DNA of 64,000 bases. Source: Labia minor (Eukaryota; Arthropoda; Insecta; Dermaptera; Spongiphoridae). The number at the start of each line of letters is the position of its first letter. Position 1 is the first letter of the stretch. A program made the position numbers and the translations under genes. The notes below the pieces were generated by a model. The model ran no database searches. It saw only the letters and a program-made list of their open reading frames with translations, and was not told where the DNA came from. The stretch covers positions 11,266,225 to 11,330,224 of the forward strand of contig OY720347.1 of the NCBI GenBank assembly GCA_963082975.1, written 5' to 3'. Shown here piece after piece: positions 3,734-50,589 of this stretch.

Positions 3734-4551
3734 CAGGGGTGTCTAAACCGCGGTCCAAATTCTGAGATGCGGCCCAAACGCAAATTATGAAAATATTTAA
3801 ATTTTTTCAATATGGTTCTAAAATAAAGGTAAAATGGTATTTATGTGCAGCCCAGCCTATTTTTACCGACCGACGATAGTAAGGGAGGTATTGTTTTCAC
3901 ACCAAATTTCACATGTGGAGATTTTTACATATCTCCACGAATCATGCATTTTCTAAACAGAAAAAAGTATTTTTAGCATGATGTCTGTCCGTCTGTCCGT
4001 CCGTCTGTCCGTCTGTCCGTCTGTCCGTCCGTATAGATGTGTACAGCCTGAACGGCTCAACCGATTTTGATGAAATTTGGTATATTTACTTAATGCATCA
4101 GTGGGATGAATTGATCAACTTTTGGTGCAATTCCGGAAACCGGAAGTGGTAGTATTAGCGATCGACGATAGGAAGGAAAGGGTTATTTTCACACCAAAGG
4201 AGATTTTTTTATATATCACCACGAATCATGCATTTTGTATTGGTTTTATCCTCGAAAAAAATCATATTTATTAGTTTTTTCTTGATTTAAAATTATATGA
4301 CGTCATCCAGCCATGCATGACGTCACAGCATGGTCTTGCATATATATTATAAATAAAATAAAATTAAAAATATTTATGTTATACCCATATCTGTTTTTTA
4401 TTGAATTAATAGATATATTAAAATTATTTGAAATTGTTTCTGTAGCTGGAAATTAATTTATTTCAAACCGTCGGTCGGTTCGGACCTGGCCACAGGTCAA
4501 CTTATTTTTTTTCAATGTGGCCCTCGAATGGTCATAGTTTAGACACCCCTG
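3734..4551. mobile_element. hAT MITE interrupted by a Helentron-like repeat
   Basis: Terminal inverted repeats CAGGGGTGTCTAAAC at both ends. The flanks ATGTAGAG and AAGGAGAG agree at 6 of 8 positions. Once the inner repeat at 3865-4503 is removed, about 180 bp of hAT sequence remain. It lies just downstream of the SV2-like gene. Confidence 0.75.
3865..4503 (+). mobile_element. Helentron-like non-autonomous repeat, family 1, copy 1
   Basis: Starts ACCGACCGACGATAG after a T-run. It has a central GTCT/GTCC microsatellite (about 3984-4030), then the inverted subterminal repeat CGTCGGTCGGT, and ends in hairpin GACCTG-GCCA-CAGGTC (4483-4498) followed by AACTT. A 5' subterminal inverted repeat, central tandem repeat, matching 3' repeat and terminal stem-loop with insertion among Ts is the layout described for HINE/DINE elements. 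It is nested in the hAT MITE 3734-4551. No protein. Confidence 0.65.
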
Positions 4552-4809: not shown

Positions 4810-6705
4810 CTAGCTGATCAGAGCGCCTTCCAGGCGCTCTTCACACCTAGACGGGCGCTCCGCCCCCTGTACCCCCGAGTGATACATAGTATTTGGTTGA
4901 AAGTCTGTATGTAAAAGGTTTTCATCCATTTTGTTTCAATCAGTATAAGTAGATAAGACATATATTTGTTTTCTTAGAAAATATATATTTTAATTTAATC
5001 AGTAAATTAATTATATATTAATATTGCATATGTTATATTTATCTAACTCTGTGTCTATACAGTTTTCGAAAGTTCTTAGCCGCAGCATCCACTTTTCTCT
5101 AAAAGTCCCTATCCTGAGCTACAACCAAATCCTACCCTGTCCCATCTCTCCCATGTCCCTTCCTTCATTGTCCACCCACCTTGATCTTTGGTCTTCCACC
5201 GGATGTTTCCCAATATTTGCATGTGTGTCTGCATACATATCTACGTATATGATAACTGAATAATAATAATAATAATGTATTAAATGAATATAATTGAAAT
5301 TTTAGTTTTAATTGCACTTTTTTTTTGGTTTTTATTTTTATTTATTTTTATTGGAATTATTACAAATAATAATAATAATAATAATATACCGTTTAATACG
5401 TGAAAATAATAATAATAATAATATACCGTTTAATACGTGAAAATAATAATAATAATAATAATAATTTATTAAATTAATATAATTGAAATTTTATTTTTTA
5501 TTATTACATTTTTATTTTTATTTTTTACCGACCGACGATAGTAAGGGAGGTATTGTTTTCACACCAAATTTCACATGTGGAGATTTTTACATATCTCCAC
5601 GAATATTGCTTAATTTAAAATTATATGAAGTCACCCAGCCATTCATGACGTCACAGCCTGGTCTTACATATAAATTACAAATAAAATAAAATTAAAAATA
5701 TTTATGTTATGTCCATATCTGTTTTTTTATTACATTAATAGATATATTAAAATTATTTGAAATTGTTTCTGTAGCTGGAAATTAATTTACTTCAAACCGT
5801 CGGTCGGTTCGGACCTGGCCACAGGTCAACTTATTTTGTTAATAATTTATTTTTATTTTTTATTTTTTTTGTTAATAATTATTACATTTTTATTTGTTCG
5901 AAAATTATTTCTACTTTATTAATTGTTAATAGTTATTACATTTTAATTAACAGTTTTCGGAATAAGTATATTCTCTTATTTTATAGAGATTTTTATTGTT
6001 TGTCTCAAAAGTCTACCTACAATATTTCATTACCATTGTATGATTCAAAATAAAATTCAAAATATTTAATAGGACATGACATGATCTTAGTATTAATTTA
6101 TTTTCATTATATTAGATTGATTAATAAATTTCAAAATATTTAATAGGACATGACATGATCTTAGTATTTTTCCCATCCCAGAATATTTGCTAATATTACA
6201 TGTTGGAGTTCCAATTACCTGCATATTTAATGGCAATTTCAATGCTGAATATACTTTTAAATAAAAAATTAAAAAAATTTGAAGTAAATGGAATTATTAT
6301 AATTAATAAATCTATATATAAATTTAATATATATTCAAACAATAATTGAAACAATATAATTAAAACGATTCAATATTTTACTTACATTGTGATTTATATT
6401 TTTATTTTTATTACAACTGTTATTATGGGTATGTTATTTTTGACAGTTTAAAAAAAATTAAAAATATTTGAATTTTGAAGAATATATGTAGCGCCATCTG
6501 TCGATAGTTTTGTGACACTACAGACTTTTACCAAAATATTACTAATTAAATTAATTTTGGATAAATTAATTTTGGATTTAACTACACTAAAACCTTCCTT
6601 GGTATGCCCACAACAATCCCTGAAAGTTTCACCGTAATCGGACGGGTAGTTTTTGAGTCTATAAGAGTCAGACAGACAGACATTGCCTTTTATATATATA
6701 GAAGA
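4810..6705 (-). mobile_element. Non-autonomous Helitron, copy A
   Basis: On the minus strand the element ends with an 8-bp-stem hairpin AGAGCGCC-TGGAA-GGCGCTCT, six bases, then CTAG followed by T, which is the canonical Helitron 3' end. The 5' end is TC followed by an AT-rich tract and AAAAGGCAATGTCTG; its exact base is blurred by a GATA microsatellite at 6701-6740. No Rep/helicase frame is present. It contains a relic of LINE 3' sequence (5040-5215) and a family-1 Helentron-like repeat. It is almost identical to copy B in inverted orientation. Confidence 0.75.
5527..5832 (+). mobile_element. Helentron-like repeat, family 1, short copy inside Helitron A
   Basis: 306-bp internally deleted copy that keeps the ACCGACCGACGATAG start, the CGTCGGTCGGT inverted repeat and the GACCTG-GCCA-CAGGTC hairpin, but lacks the central microsatellite. 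Its exact counterpart lies in Helitron B (10657-10962), so it entered before the two Helitron copies separated. Confidence 0.7.
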
Positions 6706-10656: not shown

Positions 10657-10962
10657 AAGTTGACCTGTGGCCAGGTCCGAACCGACCGACGGTTTGAAGT
10701 AAATTAATTTCCAGCTACAGAAACAATTTCAAATAATTTTAATATATCTATTAATGTAATAAAAAAACAGATATGGACATAACATAAATATTTTTAATTT
10801 TATTTTATTTGTAATTTATATGTAAGACCAGGCTGTGACGTCATGAATGGCTGGGTGACTTCATATAATTTTAAATTAAGCAATATTCGTGGAGATATGT
10901 AAAAATCTCCACATGTGAAATTTGGTGTGAAAACAATACCTCCCTTACTATCGTCGGTCGGT
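10657..10962 (-). mobile_element. Helentron-like repeat, family 1, inside Helitron B
   Basis: Minus-strand counterpart of 5527-5832, with the same length and the same termini and hairpin. It was carried passively by the Helitron. Confidence 0.7.
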
Positions 10963-16932: not shown

Positions 16933-18792
16933 TTAATGAGATGTATGCAGTTGTTTTCTTGAAACAAGAATCTCAATATCTGGCTTAATATTGGAAACTT
17001 TTAATCTAAGATCCGGCTCTACATTTAATTTGTTTCTATATTTAGACTTAATATAAAATAGTACCGAAAAAGCTTGTTCGCATAAATATGTTGTGCAGAA
17101 TGGAATCAAGTGTTGAAGTGCTTTATTTGCAAGCGCAGGATAATCTGACCTGAGAAGTAACCAAAAGTTGCTCAATTCAGTTTTGTTAAATTTTAGTTTA
17201 TAAGTTGTATCACATGATAATTCCACGAGAATATCTTGTTCAGGTGCAGATAAATGTTTAGCATTTGTAATTTCCATATTAAATGGATCTCTGATCCAGT
17301 TATTGCAAGGATCAGGAGTAGAAAAATACTTCCTGAAGTTGCTTTTCAAAGTAATTAAATGTTCAACAAATAATTGACGCGTTTGATTAAGCAATTTTTC
17401 ACTGGAGCTTTCTATGAAATCATTGAGAGTTGGAAAAGACTCATATACACCGTTCTGGATGCGTTTCGACCACAAGTCGATTTTTTTAATCATTGCTTCT
17501 ATTTTATCTTCAACTTTAAATATATTTACAACAGTACCTTGCAGGCTCAAATTAAGTTCGTTCAATTTTGTAAAAATATCAGTCAAGTAAGCCACCTTAG
17601 CTAACCAGATAAAATCATTGAAACATTCGGTCAGTTCAAAATGCGCATCTATTAAAAACAATCGTATTTCATCTCGAAGCTCAAAAAGGCGAATGAGTAC
17701 TTTCCCGCGGGACAACCAACGTACATCTGTATGTAATAATAAATGTGTATGTTGACTACCCATTTCCTCACACAAAATTTTAAAAACTCTGGAATTAAGT
17801 GGACGAGCCTTAATGAAATTGACAATTTTAACTACTTCGTCTAATGTTCTTTTCAAATCTGGTGACATATTTTTGGCTGCTAATGATTCTCTGTGAATGC
17901 AGCAATGATTCCAAACAACCTGAGGCGCAACATTTTTAATAAGAGCAATCAATCCAGTTCTTGTACCTGACATTGCACGAGCACCATCAGTGCAAATTCC
18001 AACACATTTTGGCCACTCTATTTCATTTTCGGTTATAAAATTATTCAAACTGTTAAATATGTCATTAGCTGTCGTTCGTGAAGGTAGTGAATCACAAAAC
18101 AATACATCTTCTTGTATTTGATTTTCAAACTCATATCTAATGAAAGCTAACAAATTGGCATTATTAGTGACATCAGTACTTTCATCCAATTGTAATGAGT
18201 AATAGTGACTTTTGCGCACTCTCGATATTAATTCTTCTTTTATATTACATGACATGTCTTCAATCCTATTCTTAACCGTATCATTTGATAATGAAATCAA
18301 ATTTATATCGTTTGCTGCTTTAGTTCCTAACATTATATTTGTAATTACTTTTGTAGCAGGAAGAATTAATTGCTCTGCTATATTATGCTGCTTTCCTGCT
18401 TTAGCAATAAGTAGAGCTACTTCATATGATGCCATTACTGCTTTCTTACTCATACCACCAGATCCCGTCTTTACCATCAATTTCTGACTTGAATTAAGTT
18501 CTTCTTTTTTCATTTTAAAAAATTCGATAGACTTACTAACATGCTCGCTGTGCTTTGTTTGTAAATGACGTCTGAGATTAGCAGGTTTCATACTTTCATT
18601 GGATAAACTTTCCTGACATAGAACGCAGACTGGTCTTTCCACATCATTGTTGCAAATATAAGTAAATCCAAATGATAAATAATCATCCGAATATTTTCTA
18701 GTTTTGCGTTTCTTGGTAGAGTTTGCTGTTGATGCCTCATCATCTGATTCTTTCCGTTTCTGTGTTGAACCAGTTTGTAGCCAACGATCCAT
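16933..18792 (-). CDS. hAT transposase, ZBED5/SCAND3-like (619 aa)
   Basis: Cut-and-paste transposase with an RNase-H-like fold. From the N-terminus: a basic nuclear-signal-like tract (KKRKTRK, residues 27-33); a BED zinc finger (CVLC at 56-59 and HLQTKH at 76-81); the RNase-H core with LDEST (Asp203), CTDGARAM (Asp269) and the CC-x-H motif NHCCIH (295-300); the DVRWLSRG block (356-363); and the C-terminal hATC dimerisation region with CEQAFS (Glu572). The three acidic residues expected for catalysis are therefore visible. The start MDRWLQ is at 18792 and no stop interrupts the frame. Length is usual for the family. Several ZBED genes were domesticated from such transposases, but here flanking TIRs and target duplication indicate a transposon gene. 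Confidence 0.9.
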   Translation of the reverse strand: MDRWLQTGSTQKRKESDDEASTANSTKKRKTRKYSDDYLSFGFTYICNNDVERPVCVLCQESLSNESMKPANLRRHLQTKHSEHVSKSIEFFKMKKEELNSSQKLMVKTGSGGMSKKAVMASYEVALLIAKAGKQHNIAEQLILPATKVITNIMLGTKAANDINLISLSNDTVKNRIEDMSCNIKEELISRVRKSHYYSLQLDESTDVTNNANLLAFIRYEFENQIQEDVLFCDSLPSRTTANDIFNSLNNFITENEIEWPKCVGICTDGARAMSGTRTGLIALIKNVAPQVVWNHCCIHRESLAAKNMSPDLKRTLDEVVKIVNFIKARPLNSRVFKILCEEMGSQHTHLLLHTDVRWLSRGKVLIRLFELRDEIRLFLIDAHFELTECFNDFIWLAKVAYLTDIFTKLNELNLSLQGTVVNIFKVEDKIEAMIKKIDLWSKRIQNGVYESFPTLNDFIESSSEKLLNQTRQLFVEHLITLKSNFRKYFSTPDPCNNWIRDPFNMEITNAKHLSAPEQDILVELSCDTTYKLKFNKTELSNFWLLLRSDYPALANKALQHLIPFCTTYLCEQAFSVLFYIKSKYRNKLNVEPDLRLKVSNIKPDIEILVSRKQLHTSH

Positions 18793-19020
18793 TTTATGGA
18801 GTAATTTATTAACATTGAACTACAATAATATAAATATAATATAAATATAATATAAATATAACGAATTATTATTTACTAGCTATGTTTTAATATGATTTTA
18901 AATGAATGTTTTAATATCATTTTAAATGAATGTTTTAAATCATTTTAATAAATGTTTTAAATCATTTTAAATAAATGATTTAATATCATTTTAAATGAAT
19001 ATTAATTTATATAATAAATA

Positions 19021-43187: not shown

Positions 43188-43259
43188 CAGTGGTTTCCAA
43201 CCTTTCTGTGTACCGGCGCCTCCCTTTTGTTACAAAAAATTCTTGTGCCCCCCTTAATT
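43188..43259 (+). mobile_element. hAT left terminus
   Basis: CAGTGGTTTCCAACC followed by CTTTCTGTGTACCGGCGCC, the same family as 8044-8344. The rest is displaced by the Helentron-like repeat that starts at 43260. No right terminus was recognised beyond 46819. Confidence 0.6.
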
Positions 43260-43726
43260 ACCGACCGACGATAGTAAGGGAGGTATTGTTTTCACACCTA
43301 ATTTCACATGTTGAGATTATTACATATCTCCATGAATCATGCATTTTCTTAACAGAAAAAAGTATTTTTAGCATGATGTCTGTCCGTCCGTCCGTCCGTA
43401 TTGATGTGTACAGCCTGAACGGCTCAACCGATTTTGATGCAATTTGGTATATTTACTTAATGCATCAGTGGGATGAATTAATCAACTTTTCGTGCAAATC
43501 CGGAAACCGGAAGTGGTAGTATTAGCGATCGACGATAGGAAGGGAAGGGTTATTTTCACACCAAATTTCACATGAGGAGATTTTTTTACATATCACCACG
43601 AATCATGCACTTTGTATTGGTTTTATCCTCGAGAAAAATCATCTTTATTAGTTTTTTCTTAATTTAAAATTATATGACGTCATCCAGCCATTCATGACGT
43701 CACAGCCTGGTCTTACATATATATTA

Positions 43727-45633
43727 CTAGCTGCTCAGAGCTCCTTCGTCGCTCTTCACATCTAGACGGGGGCTCCGCCCCCTGTACCCCCGAGTGGTAC
43801 ATAGTATTTGGTTGAAAGTAGTAAAAGGTTTTCATCCATTTTGATTCAATCAATGTATAACATAAAACATTCATTTCTTATTGTGTGATTATTTAAAATA
43901 TATTTTAATTTAATCAGTAAATTAATTATATATATTTTTATTGAATATGTTATATCTATCTACTCGAAAGTTCTTGGCAGCTACAACCACATTTCTCCAA
44001 GTGTCCTTATCCTGAGCCTCTGTTCCATCTTTCTTACGTCATTCCCTGGTGTCCTCATCTTTGGCCCATAAATGCTGGGAAGAATCCTATTCTCAAATAC
44101 TCTGAATCCACTCTCATCTTCTAAGATCATAGACCATGTCTCACACCCATATAATACAACAGACAAAATAATTGTTTTATATATTTTAATTTTCATTCCC
44201 TTTTATAATAATTTTGATGAGATAAGCCTCTTTACTGCATGATAACAGGCGTTTCCCGATTGCAACTTCGATTTAAAATCTTCTCAAATATTATTATCCT
44301 TCGTGATTACATTCAATTTTTCTACATATTCAAATTCTACATTTTGTATGTTAATACTGCTCCTGTTTGTTTCTAAATATATTTATTTATCATTATTAAT
44401 TTCAAACCTCATCTCTTTTCCTACCTCGATTAATTTTTCCTCGCTATCTGTAATTGCAATTGCCGAATCTCCTATTATATTTAAGTCGTCTGGGTTACCT
44501 AATATTTTACAATTGATTTCCGCATCTTACTCTTTCTTTAATACCTTCAAGATAAATTTGAAGATCAAAATTTGAAAAAGTTTATTCGGATCTATTGAGT
44601 CATGCGTAGGTTTTACTAAAGTCTACAGATAATTAGTGAACAGAAATATTGAATTCGCGGTTTTTTCCAAATTCTGTCATAATGAAAATATCTTAATTAA
44701 TGTTGATCGATTTGGCCTGAACCCGCAATGATATCTTCTAATATTTCCTCCGCCTATGGTTCGTAAGTATTGTATATGTTATAATAGAGATAGAGTATAA
44801 TATTTCTTGATCATTTCATTTTGATATTTTAATTTCATTGCTTGATTTTTATTGAATATTTTGAATTATAATAAAATTTGAGAAAATGCAAAGTTAGAGA
44901 CTTGAGACAATTTATAAAAATTAATTTATAAAAATTAACGGTATAAAAGTATTGATAAAACTAAAGATAAATTAACAATATATACATTCATTAATAGTAT
45001 TAATTTAAATTAATGGATTTATTTGATTTTTTATTATTAAGTTCATTTATTAATTTTTTTAGATCTTAGTTAATTCCCTCCCTTAAAATAAAAGAAGTAT
45101 TCAAATATAGAAAGAATAAATACAAAATAATTTAAGTTAAATATGATTTAAATATTTTATTATATTAATTAAAATGAGAACTTTTAGAATAAATTATTTA
45201 ATTGAAATGATATTTGAATATTAGAATTTAAAATAAAAAGTTAAATATTATAATAATTCTTTGATTGGGAATCGCTAGTTATATACATTGTGTAAAATGA
45301 GTCCACCAGTCAGTGCGCCTGGCTCTTGAATGAACAACACGGAGAACTATATAAACTTTAAAAAATTAAATTCTGCGGTTATTGATTAGATATTAATAAA
45401 ATCTATAGCCTATGTTACCATAGAGGTATATAAGAATATTGTGATGTAATTTCATAGAAATTGTTTCTTATTTTTTGATGTTTATAATTCTAAATTACCG
45501 GTAAAGTGTCGGTTAAGTAGGAAATTTCTTTTTTGTTTGTTTCTATGACAAAAGTAAACAAATTACATACATACATACATACAAACACTCTCCTTTATAT
45601 ATATAGATATAGATATAGATATATAGATATAGA
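43727..45633 (-). mobile_element. Non-autonomous Helitron, copy D
   Basis: Inserted exactly between A and T of the host sequence ...TATTA|TAAATA..., with no target duplication, as Helitrons do; the empty site exists in copy 1 at about 4351. The minus strand begins TCTATATCTATA and ends CTAG after a degenerate hairpin. It has LINE-derived sequence in its 3' half and an ACAT microsatellite near its 5' end. Confidence 0.82.
43960..44565 (-). mobile_element. LINE reverse-transcriptase fragment in Helitron D
   Basis: Minus-strand translation gives DDLNIIGDSAIAITDSEEKL (the second half of the RT catalytic YADD block, here PDD), then after frame changes YKTIILSVVLYGCETWSM and FENRILPSIYGP. It is homologous to the fragment at 2490-3210. 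Several frameshifts; a dead remnant. Confidence 0.75.
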
Positions 45634-45757
45634 TAAATAAAATAAAATTAAAAATATTTATGTTATATCCATATCTGTTTTTTATTGCATTAATAGATAT
45701 ATTAAAATTATTTGAAATTGTTTCTGTAGCTGGAAATTAATTTACTTCAAACCGTCG

Positions 45758-46784
45758 CACAGTGGTATGAAACGCCAAAAAAGCTGGCCAAAAATCGAAA
45801 ATTGAAAAATTTTTTTTTTGCATGTCGTTTATGGTATTTTGTTGAAGACATATTTATGTACGAAAAGCTGAAAATGTAGAGCACTACCATGACTCTACGA
45901 GTTTTCCGAACATCTCAAAGTCAGCTGTTTTTACTTTCTCACGAGATTTCCCAAAACGTTTGAAATTCGAGCTCAGTCAAAATTGGTGTTTCGTTTCATA
46001 GAAAAGTTTCATTTGCAACTTGCGACATGGAAACTGTTGCTGGAGGTACGTACATGGACTTTTTTATTTTGTTTGCTAGAAATGCATGTATTATATTGAT
46101 ATTGGCTGATTTAAACCGCTTGTGTCAGAAAATGTAACCTGACGAAAAACTTTTCAAAAAACATTCCGCATTTTTTACATTGGTGACCATTGGTGACAAT
46201 CTCATTTGAATCATAAAGATAAAGGTCTATAGATAAAGAATCATGAAGAAAAAATTGCTCCTTTTTGCCCCATTTGTTCCTATGAATTTTTTTCCGAGCG
46301 CGCGAACGTCAACAGACTAGGGCCTATGGGACCCACAGGTACCTGCAGGTTAGTGCGATTAATATCTCGTTAAGGTGCACCTGTCACTTTTCAAAAGAAG
46401 GAAAGATATTTGAAGTAAAATCAATGTAACAGCTCACCTTTTCTCGAATTCCGTCGCCTATTTTAGATGCATAATATAGTTGTTCTCCTTTTTCTCTTCA
46501 TGACGTCATTTTTTGAAAAATCAACACATCATTTGAAATTTATCATTTTTTTTCGTACAATCTAACTTCAATTTCGAAATTTTCGGCTCAAAAAATCCCA
46601 GAGAACATACAATTGCGAATCTGACGTCACTTTTCTAAAAATCTGTCCGCCATTTTGAATTCGCCATTTTTTTTTTGTCAAATTTAAATTTCCTGACTCT
46701 CAAAACTATTGCCTACAAAATTTCAAGCTGTTTCACCAACATCTTCATTTTTGGCCAGCTATTTGGGCGTTTCAGACCACTGTG
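45758..46784. mobile_element. Non-autonomous Transib element
   Basis: 1027 bp with 38-bp terminal inverted repeats (three mismatches) starting CACAGTGGT. It is flanked by a 5-bp duplication CGTCG (45753-45757 and 46785-46789) within a family-1 Helentron-like repeat. Transib transposons, the RAG1-related superfamily, are known for CACWRTG termini and 5-bp G+C-rich duplications. No transposase frame inside. Confidence 0.8.
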
Positions 46785-47139
46785 CGTCGGTCGGTTCGGA
46801 CCTTGCTACAGGTCAACTTTATGAAATATATTTTCATTAAATTAAAATTATATCACATTTGGCAAACAATTTTAAATTTAAATTGAACCATTTACCTTAA
46901 TACGCCACCTCCTTGTTTTTTTTTTTCAAAATATGATAATTTCATTAATGAACTTCTTACTGATATATTTATAATTTTTTTTTTTTTAAATTTTCATTAA
47001 GATCTTTGAATAAAATTAAGCTTATTGATTTAATAGAATTAATAGAATTAAACTTATTGATTCGATTTAAGATGTATTCTAAAACACCATTAATTTTAAA
47101 AATTAATATTTGTTTATTTTATTTTTTAATATGTATTTT

Positions 47140-50088: not shown

Positions 50089-50565
50089 ACCGACCGACGA
50101 TAGTAAGGGATGTATTGTTTTCACACCTAATTTCACATGTGGAGATTTTTACATATCTCCACGTATAAGATTTAAGCAGACCATATTTTATATTGTAAGG
50201 GAGAGGAAAGATAAAAATATATGATATGAAGGGAAGGGTTATTTTCACACCAAATTTCACATGTGGAGATTTTTACATATCTCCACGAATCATGCATTTT
50301 TGTATTAGTTTTATCCTCGGGAAAAATCATCTTCATTAGTTTTTTCTTAATTTTAAATTATATGACGTCACCCAGCCCTTCATGACGTCACAGCCAGCTA
50401 CTAATATATTATAAATAAAATAACATTAATAATATTTATGTTCTATCCATATCTGTTTTTTATTGCATTAATAGATACATTTAAATTATTTGAAATGGTC
50501 TCTGTAGCTGGAAATTAATTGATTTCACACCGTCGGTAGGTTCTGCGCCTGGCTACAGGTCAACT
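50089..50565 (+). mobile_element. Helentron-like repeat, family 1, copy 4
   Basis: Begins ACCGACCGACGATAG and ends with CGTCGGTAGGT, hairpin CCTG-GCTA-CAGG, then TCAACTT. It ends close to the G+C-rich GIPC upstream region. Confidence 0.65.
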
Positions 50566-50589
50566 TATTCTAGAACGTTTCGTTTGTTG

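Follow-up and report, generated by a model that had tools for sequence, protein, structure and literature searches.

The window analysed here is the whole of a 64,000-nucleotide stretch of the Labia minor genome (contig OY720347.1, positions 11,266,225 to 11,330,224 of the forward strand; genome size 604 Mb). It carries a non-autonomous Transib element of 1,027 bp, called T below, inserted in a copy of an abundant repeat of about 0.63 kb (~634 bp), called X, which may be a Helitron-like element (HINE/Helentron). Without T, the GC content of the window is 25.5%. X begins with TTACCGACCGACGATAG after a run of T bases and ends with GGTCAACTTATT; a possible hairpin (GACCTG-GCCA-CAGGTC) is visible near its end, and X copies can lie near one another head to tail. 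The features of the element, its host repeat and the other X copies of the window are the following:

45758..46784, plus strand: non-autonomous Transib element T, 1,027 bp, read as an internal-deletion derivative
45758..45795, plus strand: left terminal inverted repeat (TIR) of T, 38 bp: CACAGTG, 23 bp, CCAAAAAT(C)
46747..46784, minus strand: right TIR of T, 38 bp: CACAGTG, 23 bp, CCAAAAAT(G)
45753..45757, no strand: left target duplication CGTCG; empty site visible in X copies of the window
46785..46789, no strand: right target duplication CGTCG
46293..46356, plus strand: 64 bp of T (T536-599) without counterpart in the two autonomous copies
46490..46490, plus strand: internal-deletion junction (T733), joining the left-hand to the right-hand part of the autonomous element
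45623..45757, plus strand: host X of T, left part (at least), from alignment to other X copies
46785..46817, plus strand: host X of T, right end (CGTCGGTCGG...GGTCAAC)
3863..4503, plus strand: X copy with empty target site
5679..5832, plus strand: X copy (matched part) with empty target site
10657..10810, minus strand: X copy (matched part) with empty target site
50404..50566, plus strand: X copy (matched part), empty, target flanks with substitutions
43255-43726: X copy

The ends of T

The initial annotation had described exact heptamers at both termini, 38-bp TIRs with three mismatches and a CGTCG duplication. All were confirmed on re-reading T, the heptamer CACAGTG matching 7/7 at each end. 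X copies of the window retain the unoccupied site (4464-4478 and 5793-5807), and comparison with them shows that T is flanked by a 5-bp duplication. T is non-coding, the largest open frame reaching into it being 49 aa. Elsewhere in the window, open frames match an RFX DNA-binding domain, a GIPC domain and C2H2 fingers. A 628-aa open frame on the minus strand (16933-18819), with a weak match to the hAT dimerisation domain (E 8.6e-4, 19.5 bits for a Pfam cut-off of 21.4), probably encodes a hAT-type transposase.

Transib is an accepted relative of RAG1, and the ends of T had been singled out as notable for matching a RAG recombination signal with a 23-bp spacer (RSS-23), defined here by the heptamer, a spacer of 23 +/- 1 and the nonamer ACAAAAACC. 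The left end reads CACAGTG, 23 bp, CCAAAAATC, with a nonamer score of 7/9, and the right end, in reverse complement, reads CACAGTG, 23 bp, CCAAAAATG, with a score of 6/9. For a 9-mer of such composition the chance probabilities are 0.0023 for 7/9 and 0.017 for 6/9. However, a nonamer score of 6/9 was also reached at spacers of 10-12 at the left end and of 11 at the right end. The nonamer is thus weaker than claimed, and its value as special evidence is reduced, nearly equal scores being obtained at other spacings. The resemblance to RSS-23 is real but weak, and it lies in the heptamer and little else because 6/9 nonamers also occur at other spacers. It adds little, since the nonamer is modest and Transib ends are already described as RSS-like in a passage of PMC8355894.

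Copies of T and their autonomous source

The genome was searched with T at the DNA level; 40 of the 134 first-look candidates were scored, and at least 119 matching places were recovered, many of them corresponding to one TIR matching the other. With at least 40 near-full-length copies (the best 40, at 99-100% identity) and 226 exact 25-nt ends genome-wide against 0 for the reversed control, T is far beyond what chance would give. In a table made of 39 fetched copies and the window copy, an exact 5-bp CGNCG duplication was found in 37 of the 40 rows, plus the window copy (CGTCG on both sides), as the initial annotation had anticipated for copies sharing this TIR. Each of the two exceptions among the 40 (L025 and L037) is damaged at one end and lacks a clean duplication. 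The 8-bp or TA duplications that would have spoken against Transib occur in none of the inspected copies.

An autonomous Transib had been predicted elsewhere in the same genome, with a RAG1-core-like transposase gene between the same TIRs. It was found as a 3.65-kb element present in two copies (L048/L050 and L049/L051; 3,646 and 3,647 bp) that are 99.4% identical. They have the same TIRs as T, perfect across 38 bp in L050 and with one change in one TIR in L051. The Pfam RAG1 model PF12940 detected two loci in this genome with E-values of 0.07 and 0.09, below the cut-off as six-frame matches; scanned alone, one of these loci reached 25.9 bits for a Pfam cut-off of 25. Neither of the 611-aa open frames of the autonomous copies begins with ATG, and a separate frame of 155 or 156 aa lies upstream in each; the transposase gene probably consists of two exons with an intron between them. 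The 611-aa protein of L048 matches HzTransib (6pqn) with a phmmer E-value of 8.8e-107, aligned over 101-574, and RAG1 (3jbw) with an E-value of 2e-4. Counting along the alignment places the HzTransib catalytic residues D126, D225 and E436, as given in a passage of PMC6941560, opposite D206, D314 and E528 of this 611-aa protein, so that the DDE triad is kept. Locus L048, which spans ~3.3 of the 3.65 kb of one copy, has only two frames of at least 150 aa, and neither gave a kelch or PHD (RAG2) match with Pfam.

When T is aligned to L050, T1-535 and T600-733 correspond to its left 670 bp and T733-1027 to its right 293 bp, with 97.6-100% identity. On this alignment T is an internal-deletion derivative of the 3.65-kb Transib of the same genome, and by its ends, its duplications and the transposase it is assigned to Transib. 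MITEs are short (a few hundred bp), non-coding, TIR-ended elements. The superfamily in the earlier label of Transib MITE stands, but T, 1,027 bp long and a plain internal-deletion derivative, is not a classical MITE.

The protein search returned 29 matches, all scored; apart from the two autonomous copies they are a broken copy, a partial copy and fragments. Loci were cut out for 20 of the 29, and among these 20 are deletion classes of ~1.24 and ~1.43 kb that end in the same TIRs. In the ~1.43-kb class (L057-L064) a coding remnant is 74-79% identical to the present transposase and the TIRs are nearly identical, suggesting an older or divergent Transib with common ends. At locus L096 (C1:19123052), ~27 bp of one TIR remain between X flanks, which would correspond to a near-complete internal loss or to a partial excision.

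A common insertion point in X

In 36 of the 40 first copies the same base of X is occupied (...TTCAAACCGTCG/GTCGGTTCGGACCTGGCCACAGGTCAACTTATT, the slash marking the insertion point). Genome-wide, the exact 10-nt X flank (CAAACCGTCG/GTCGG) adjoins 206 of the 226 intact ends, in both orientations; taking insertion at one defined multicopy site as the mark of a site-specific element, T falls in this category. The remaining 20 ends include some in X copies with changed flanks and some insertions elsewhere. Consistently, the 20 protein-search loci hold 19 elements, of which 18, including both autonomous copies, have the X flank at every end seen (one end only being visible for three of the 18). Outside X, two loci on two contigs have identical flanks and a CGGCG duplication (L041 and L042) in a gene that we take to be Tc1-like, and single insertions are found at CGGCG (L092) and CGATG (L062). 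Other insertions away from the X target are L093 (CGACC, near the other end of X), L025 (CGCTG, one side damaged), and L037 and L094, each seen on one side only; L092-L094 were selected for the absence of the X flank.

The extent of the recognised target was examined by counting candidate sites. The 15-mer CAAACCGTCGGTCGG, counted exactly, gives 18,469 perfect empty sites in the genome, taken as X from the 15-mer alone and not site by site. In 103 kb composed of the window and of random DNA (the first 2 kb of 20 places, hand-picked among 40 drawn), 8 X targets were found, which would extrapolate to ~47,000 X copies from a small sample and a biased window. The motif CCGTCGG occurs 25,458 times in the genome (10,760 for the reversed control), and 18,469 of these sites (72.5%) are the perfect X sites. 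Among background CCGTCGG sites, 10 of 11 appear X-like with loose criteria and 7 of 9 with stricter ones, applied by eye.

With perfect X sites making up ~72% of all CCGTCGG occurrences, the 7-bp motif accounts for much of the specificity, and a CCGTCGG rule explains most of the preference for X. We give slightly less than an even chance to the reading in which the transposase has no special preference for X and needs CCGNCGG only, a motif supplied mostly by X, in its perfect copies and further in mutated ones. Two observations in other insects point the same way. The Drosophila elements hopper and transib2 prefer the 7-bp palindrome CCANTGG according to a table of PMC3276498, and a passage of PMC4735498, on moth transposons entering a baculovirus, names CGNCG as the preferred Transib site. 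CGNCG as the entire target rule was however rejected, because only 8 of the 56 sampled CGNCG sites, the window's own host site included, are X targets, to be compared with 206 of the 226 ends. A CGACG lying near the other end of X (ACCGACCGACGATAG) is similarly common (6 sites in the sample, for 8 targets), yet it holds no insertion among the inspected copies, the nearest being L093. The 7-bp rule itself is countered by two results. No insertion at a CCGTCGG outside X was seen among the inspected copies. Imperfect X flanks, with 27% expected, were found in only 3 (L013, L039 and L044) of the ~55 X-site elements (p 4e-5), one of the ~55, L096, having been found via its X flank. Imperfect sites include truncated or silenced X, and the deficit could stem from chromatin or from the condition of broken X copies. 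Taken together, these results are modest evidence that hints at a recognition of X beyond 7 bp.

Probable excision scars and proposed mechanism

An excised element would be expected to leave both of its duplications behind. X copies with a doubled target were searched for with the pattern CAAACCGTCG N0-14 CGTCGGTCGG, which gave 136 matches genome-wide and 0 for the reversed control. An analogous 5-bp doubling ~11 bp further in X was found in 2 cases, with a stricter pattern (25 fixed bases instead of 20) that misses more of the diverged X copies. About 115 of the 136 scars are identical (CGTCGCGTCG) with zero extra bases (136 minus the 21 with at least one). Slippage could in principle account for these zero-gap scars, but the control point shows almost none.

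A pattern for extra bases gave 24 matches. One base is added in 17 of them, C in 8 and G in 9, A or T never. Because the target is palindromic, these one-base scars are ambiguous: they fit hairpin opening and equally well 6-bp tandem duplications. In 4 of the 24 the insert is palindromic, with lengths of 5, 5, 6 and 8 nt. Two scars exhibit CGACG between the doubled CGTCG; the 6-nt insert CGACGG is accompanied by the loss of 2 right bases, and the 8-nt insert CGACGGTT by the loss of 3. Each of these 5-8-nt inserts is the exact reverse complement of the adjoining flank, which we read as the P-nucleotide signature of an opened hairpin, as in V(D)J recombination. The last 3 of the 24 are one 4-bp slippage product and two identical 11-nt inserts at duplicated loci, which hairpins do not explain. 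The 11-nt insert, GATACTCTGTG, lies at the X site in L116 and L117 (C9:23403985 and C9:23787909) and may be a remnant of the end of another element. At the right end of L025 (~1324), the last three bases are lost, and its target duplication follows in inverted form. In this one case a hairpin on the flank may have been joined back onto the element, like an open-and-shut join.

The doubled targets could instead mark a subfamily of X with an old 5-bp tandem duplication, a reading suited to the large block of identical scars and to the amplification of X to high copy number, but which we judge unlikely. To follow it, 40 scar loci were fetched (all 24 extra-base matches and 16 of the set of 136). 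A common downstream flank was found in one pair only, that of the 11-nt inserts. The C-type loci L099 and L112 have the same scar in X flanks that are identical over 190 bp; they may go back to a single event duplicated along with X, and this pair speaks for a subfamily. A tree was built from less than 200 bp of 44 occupied, 35 scarred and 9 empty X copies; with so short an alignment and so few empty copies its power is low. Scarred and occupied states are separated on it by 24 changes, for 26.1 +/- 2.2 with shuffled labels, and scarred, occupied and empty copies intermix as shuffled labels do. The control point speaks against the subfamily reading and so, with low power, does this mixing; the one-base and palindromic variants at the same point also argue against it.

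The divergence of T copies and of their hosts bears on how T reached so many X copies. Mean pairwise difference is 0.69% between T copies and 11.6% over the last 160 bp of the host X (inflated by some badly aligned rows, with a maximum of 51%), the two being uncorrelated (Mantel r -0.06, p 0.64). Because T copies differ by 0.69% and X hosts by ~12%, without correlation, the insertions look independent; it seems that X copies already old and scattered received young T elements one by one. Orientations within X number 21 and 15 (n=36, binomial p 0.41), or 24 and 16 of 40 by a cruder rule, and the X sites of the two autonomous copies are occupied in opposite orientations. A passive spread, in which T inserted once or twice in X and was then carried around the genome by it, is in keeping with the single occupied base in the first copies and with a right flank common to L010, L023 and L043, but is rejected as extremely improbable by the divergence contrast and the two similarly frequent orientations, to which are added the autonomous copies and the ~1.24 and ~1.43-kb deletion classes at the same X site and the insertions elsewhere with 5-bp duplications of their own.

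We therefore favour, with a probability of about 0.88, a mechanism in which T is moved in trans by the RAG1-like transposase of the 3.65-kb element, mostly into CCGTCGG within X, and is excised through hairpins that leave scars. The DDE transposase, encoded elsewhere in the genome, would bind the 38-bp ends and excise T by nicking and hairpinning the flanking DNA. Insertion of the blunt ends, staggered by 5 bp, would then take place mostly at the palindrome CCGTCGG, a motif that in this AT-rich genome comes largely from a single point of X. Once T has left, the flank hairpins would be opened and joined by the end-joining machinery of the host, producing the doubled target and sometimes palindromic P nucleotides. 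Excision through hairpins is suggested by the 4 clear and 17 compatible scars, together with the biochemistry of HzTransib described by others. From the low divergence of the T copies, we infer that this movement is recent or continuing.

One of the nearest known elements is HzTransib from Helicoverpa zea (PDB 6pqn and related), with which this Transib shares the RAG1-like DDE transposase, 5-bp GC-rich duplications and TIRs starting with CAC, the comparison of the TIRs being confined to their start. HzTransib forms a hairpin on the flank according to a passage of PMC6941560. Here, in addition, insertions are concentrated at one position of one repeat and natural excision scars are found genome-wide. 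As in hopper and transib2, the 5-bp duplication lies inside a 7-bp palindromic target (CCANTGG in Table 4 of PMC3276498), but the target is CCGTCGG and mostly within X. Dada (U6 and U1 snRNA and tRNA genes) and Pokey (28S rDNA) are likewise DNA transposons found at one position of a multicopy sequence, as stated in a passage of PMC3706591, in which Dada is not a Transib. Their target is a conserved gene, whereas here it is another repeat and the specificity may be of 7 bp only. With the V(D)J signals of RAG1/2, T shares the heptamer CACAGTG, and its scars are compatible with flank hairpins and palindromic P nucleotides. In contrast, both ends of T read as 23-spaced with a poor nonamer and thus form no 12/23 pair, T is a mobile element and not part of an immune system, and no RAG2 was detected in the covered part of the autonomous copy.

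On a stronger reading, this Transib lineage is a true site-specific dweller of X that recognises sequence beyond the 7-bp palindrome, and by moving repeatedly into and out of X it would have left, genome-wide and in the germline, P-nucleotide scars that resemble coding joints and are unrelated to V(D)J recombination; we regard this reading as possible, its odds falling somewhat short of even. Among the titles and abstract starts listed in searches of open-access literature we found no site-specific Transib and no Transib excision scars with P nucleotides, and no account of what Transib excision leaves in the germline in those titles, abstract starts and passages. This Transib combines familiar machinery with a striking place of residence and a record of excision that is unusually easy to read. 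The shared insertion site and the scars go beyond the initial annotation, and this larger finding lies outside the coordinates of T. Thousands of near-identical targets of known empty sequence form a ready-made assay in the genome, and insertion preference, orientation and the repair of hairpin ends can be read directly from the X sites. These results bear on how a transposon may live safely, with another repeat serving as its harbour, and on hairpin-opening joins outside immunity.
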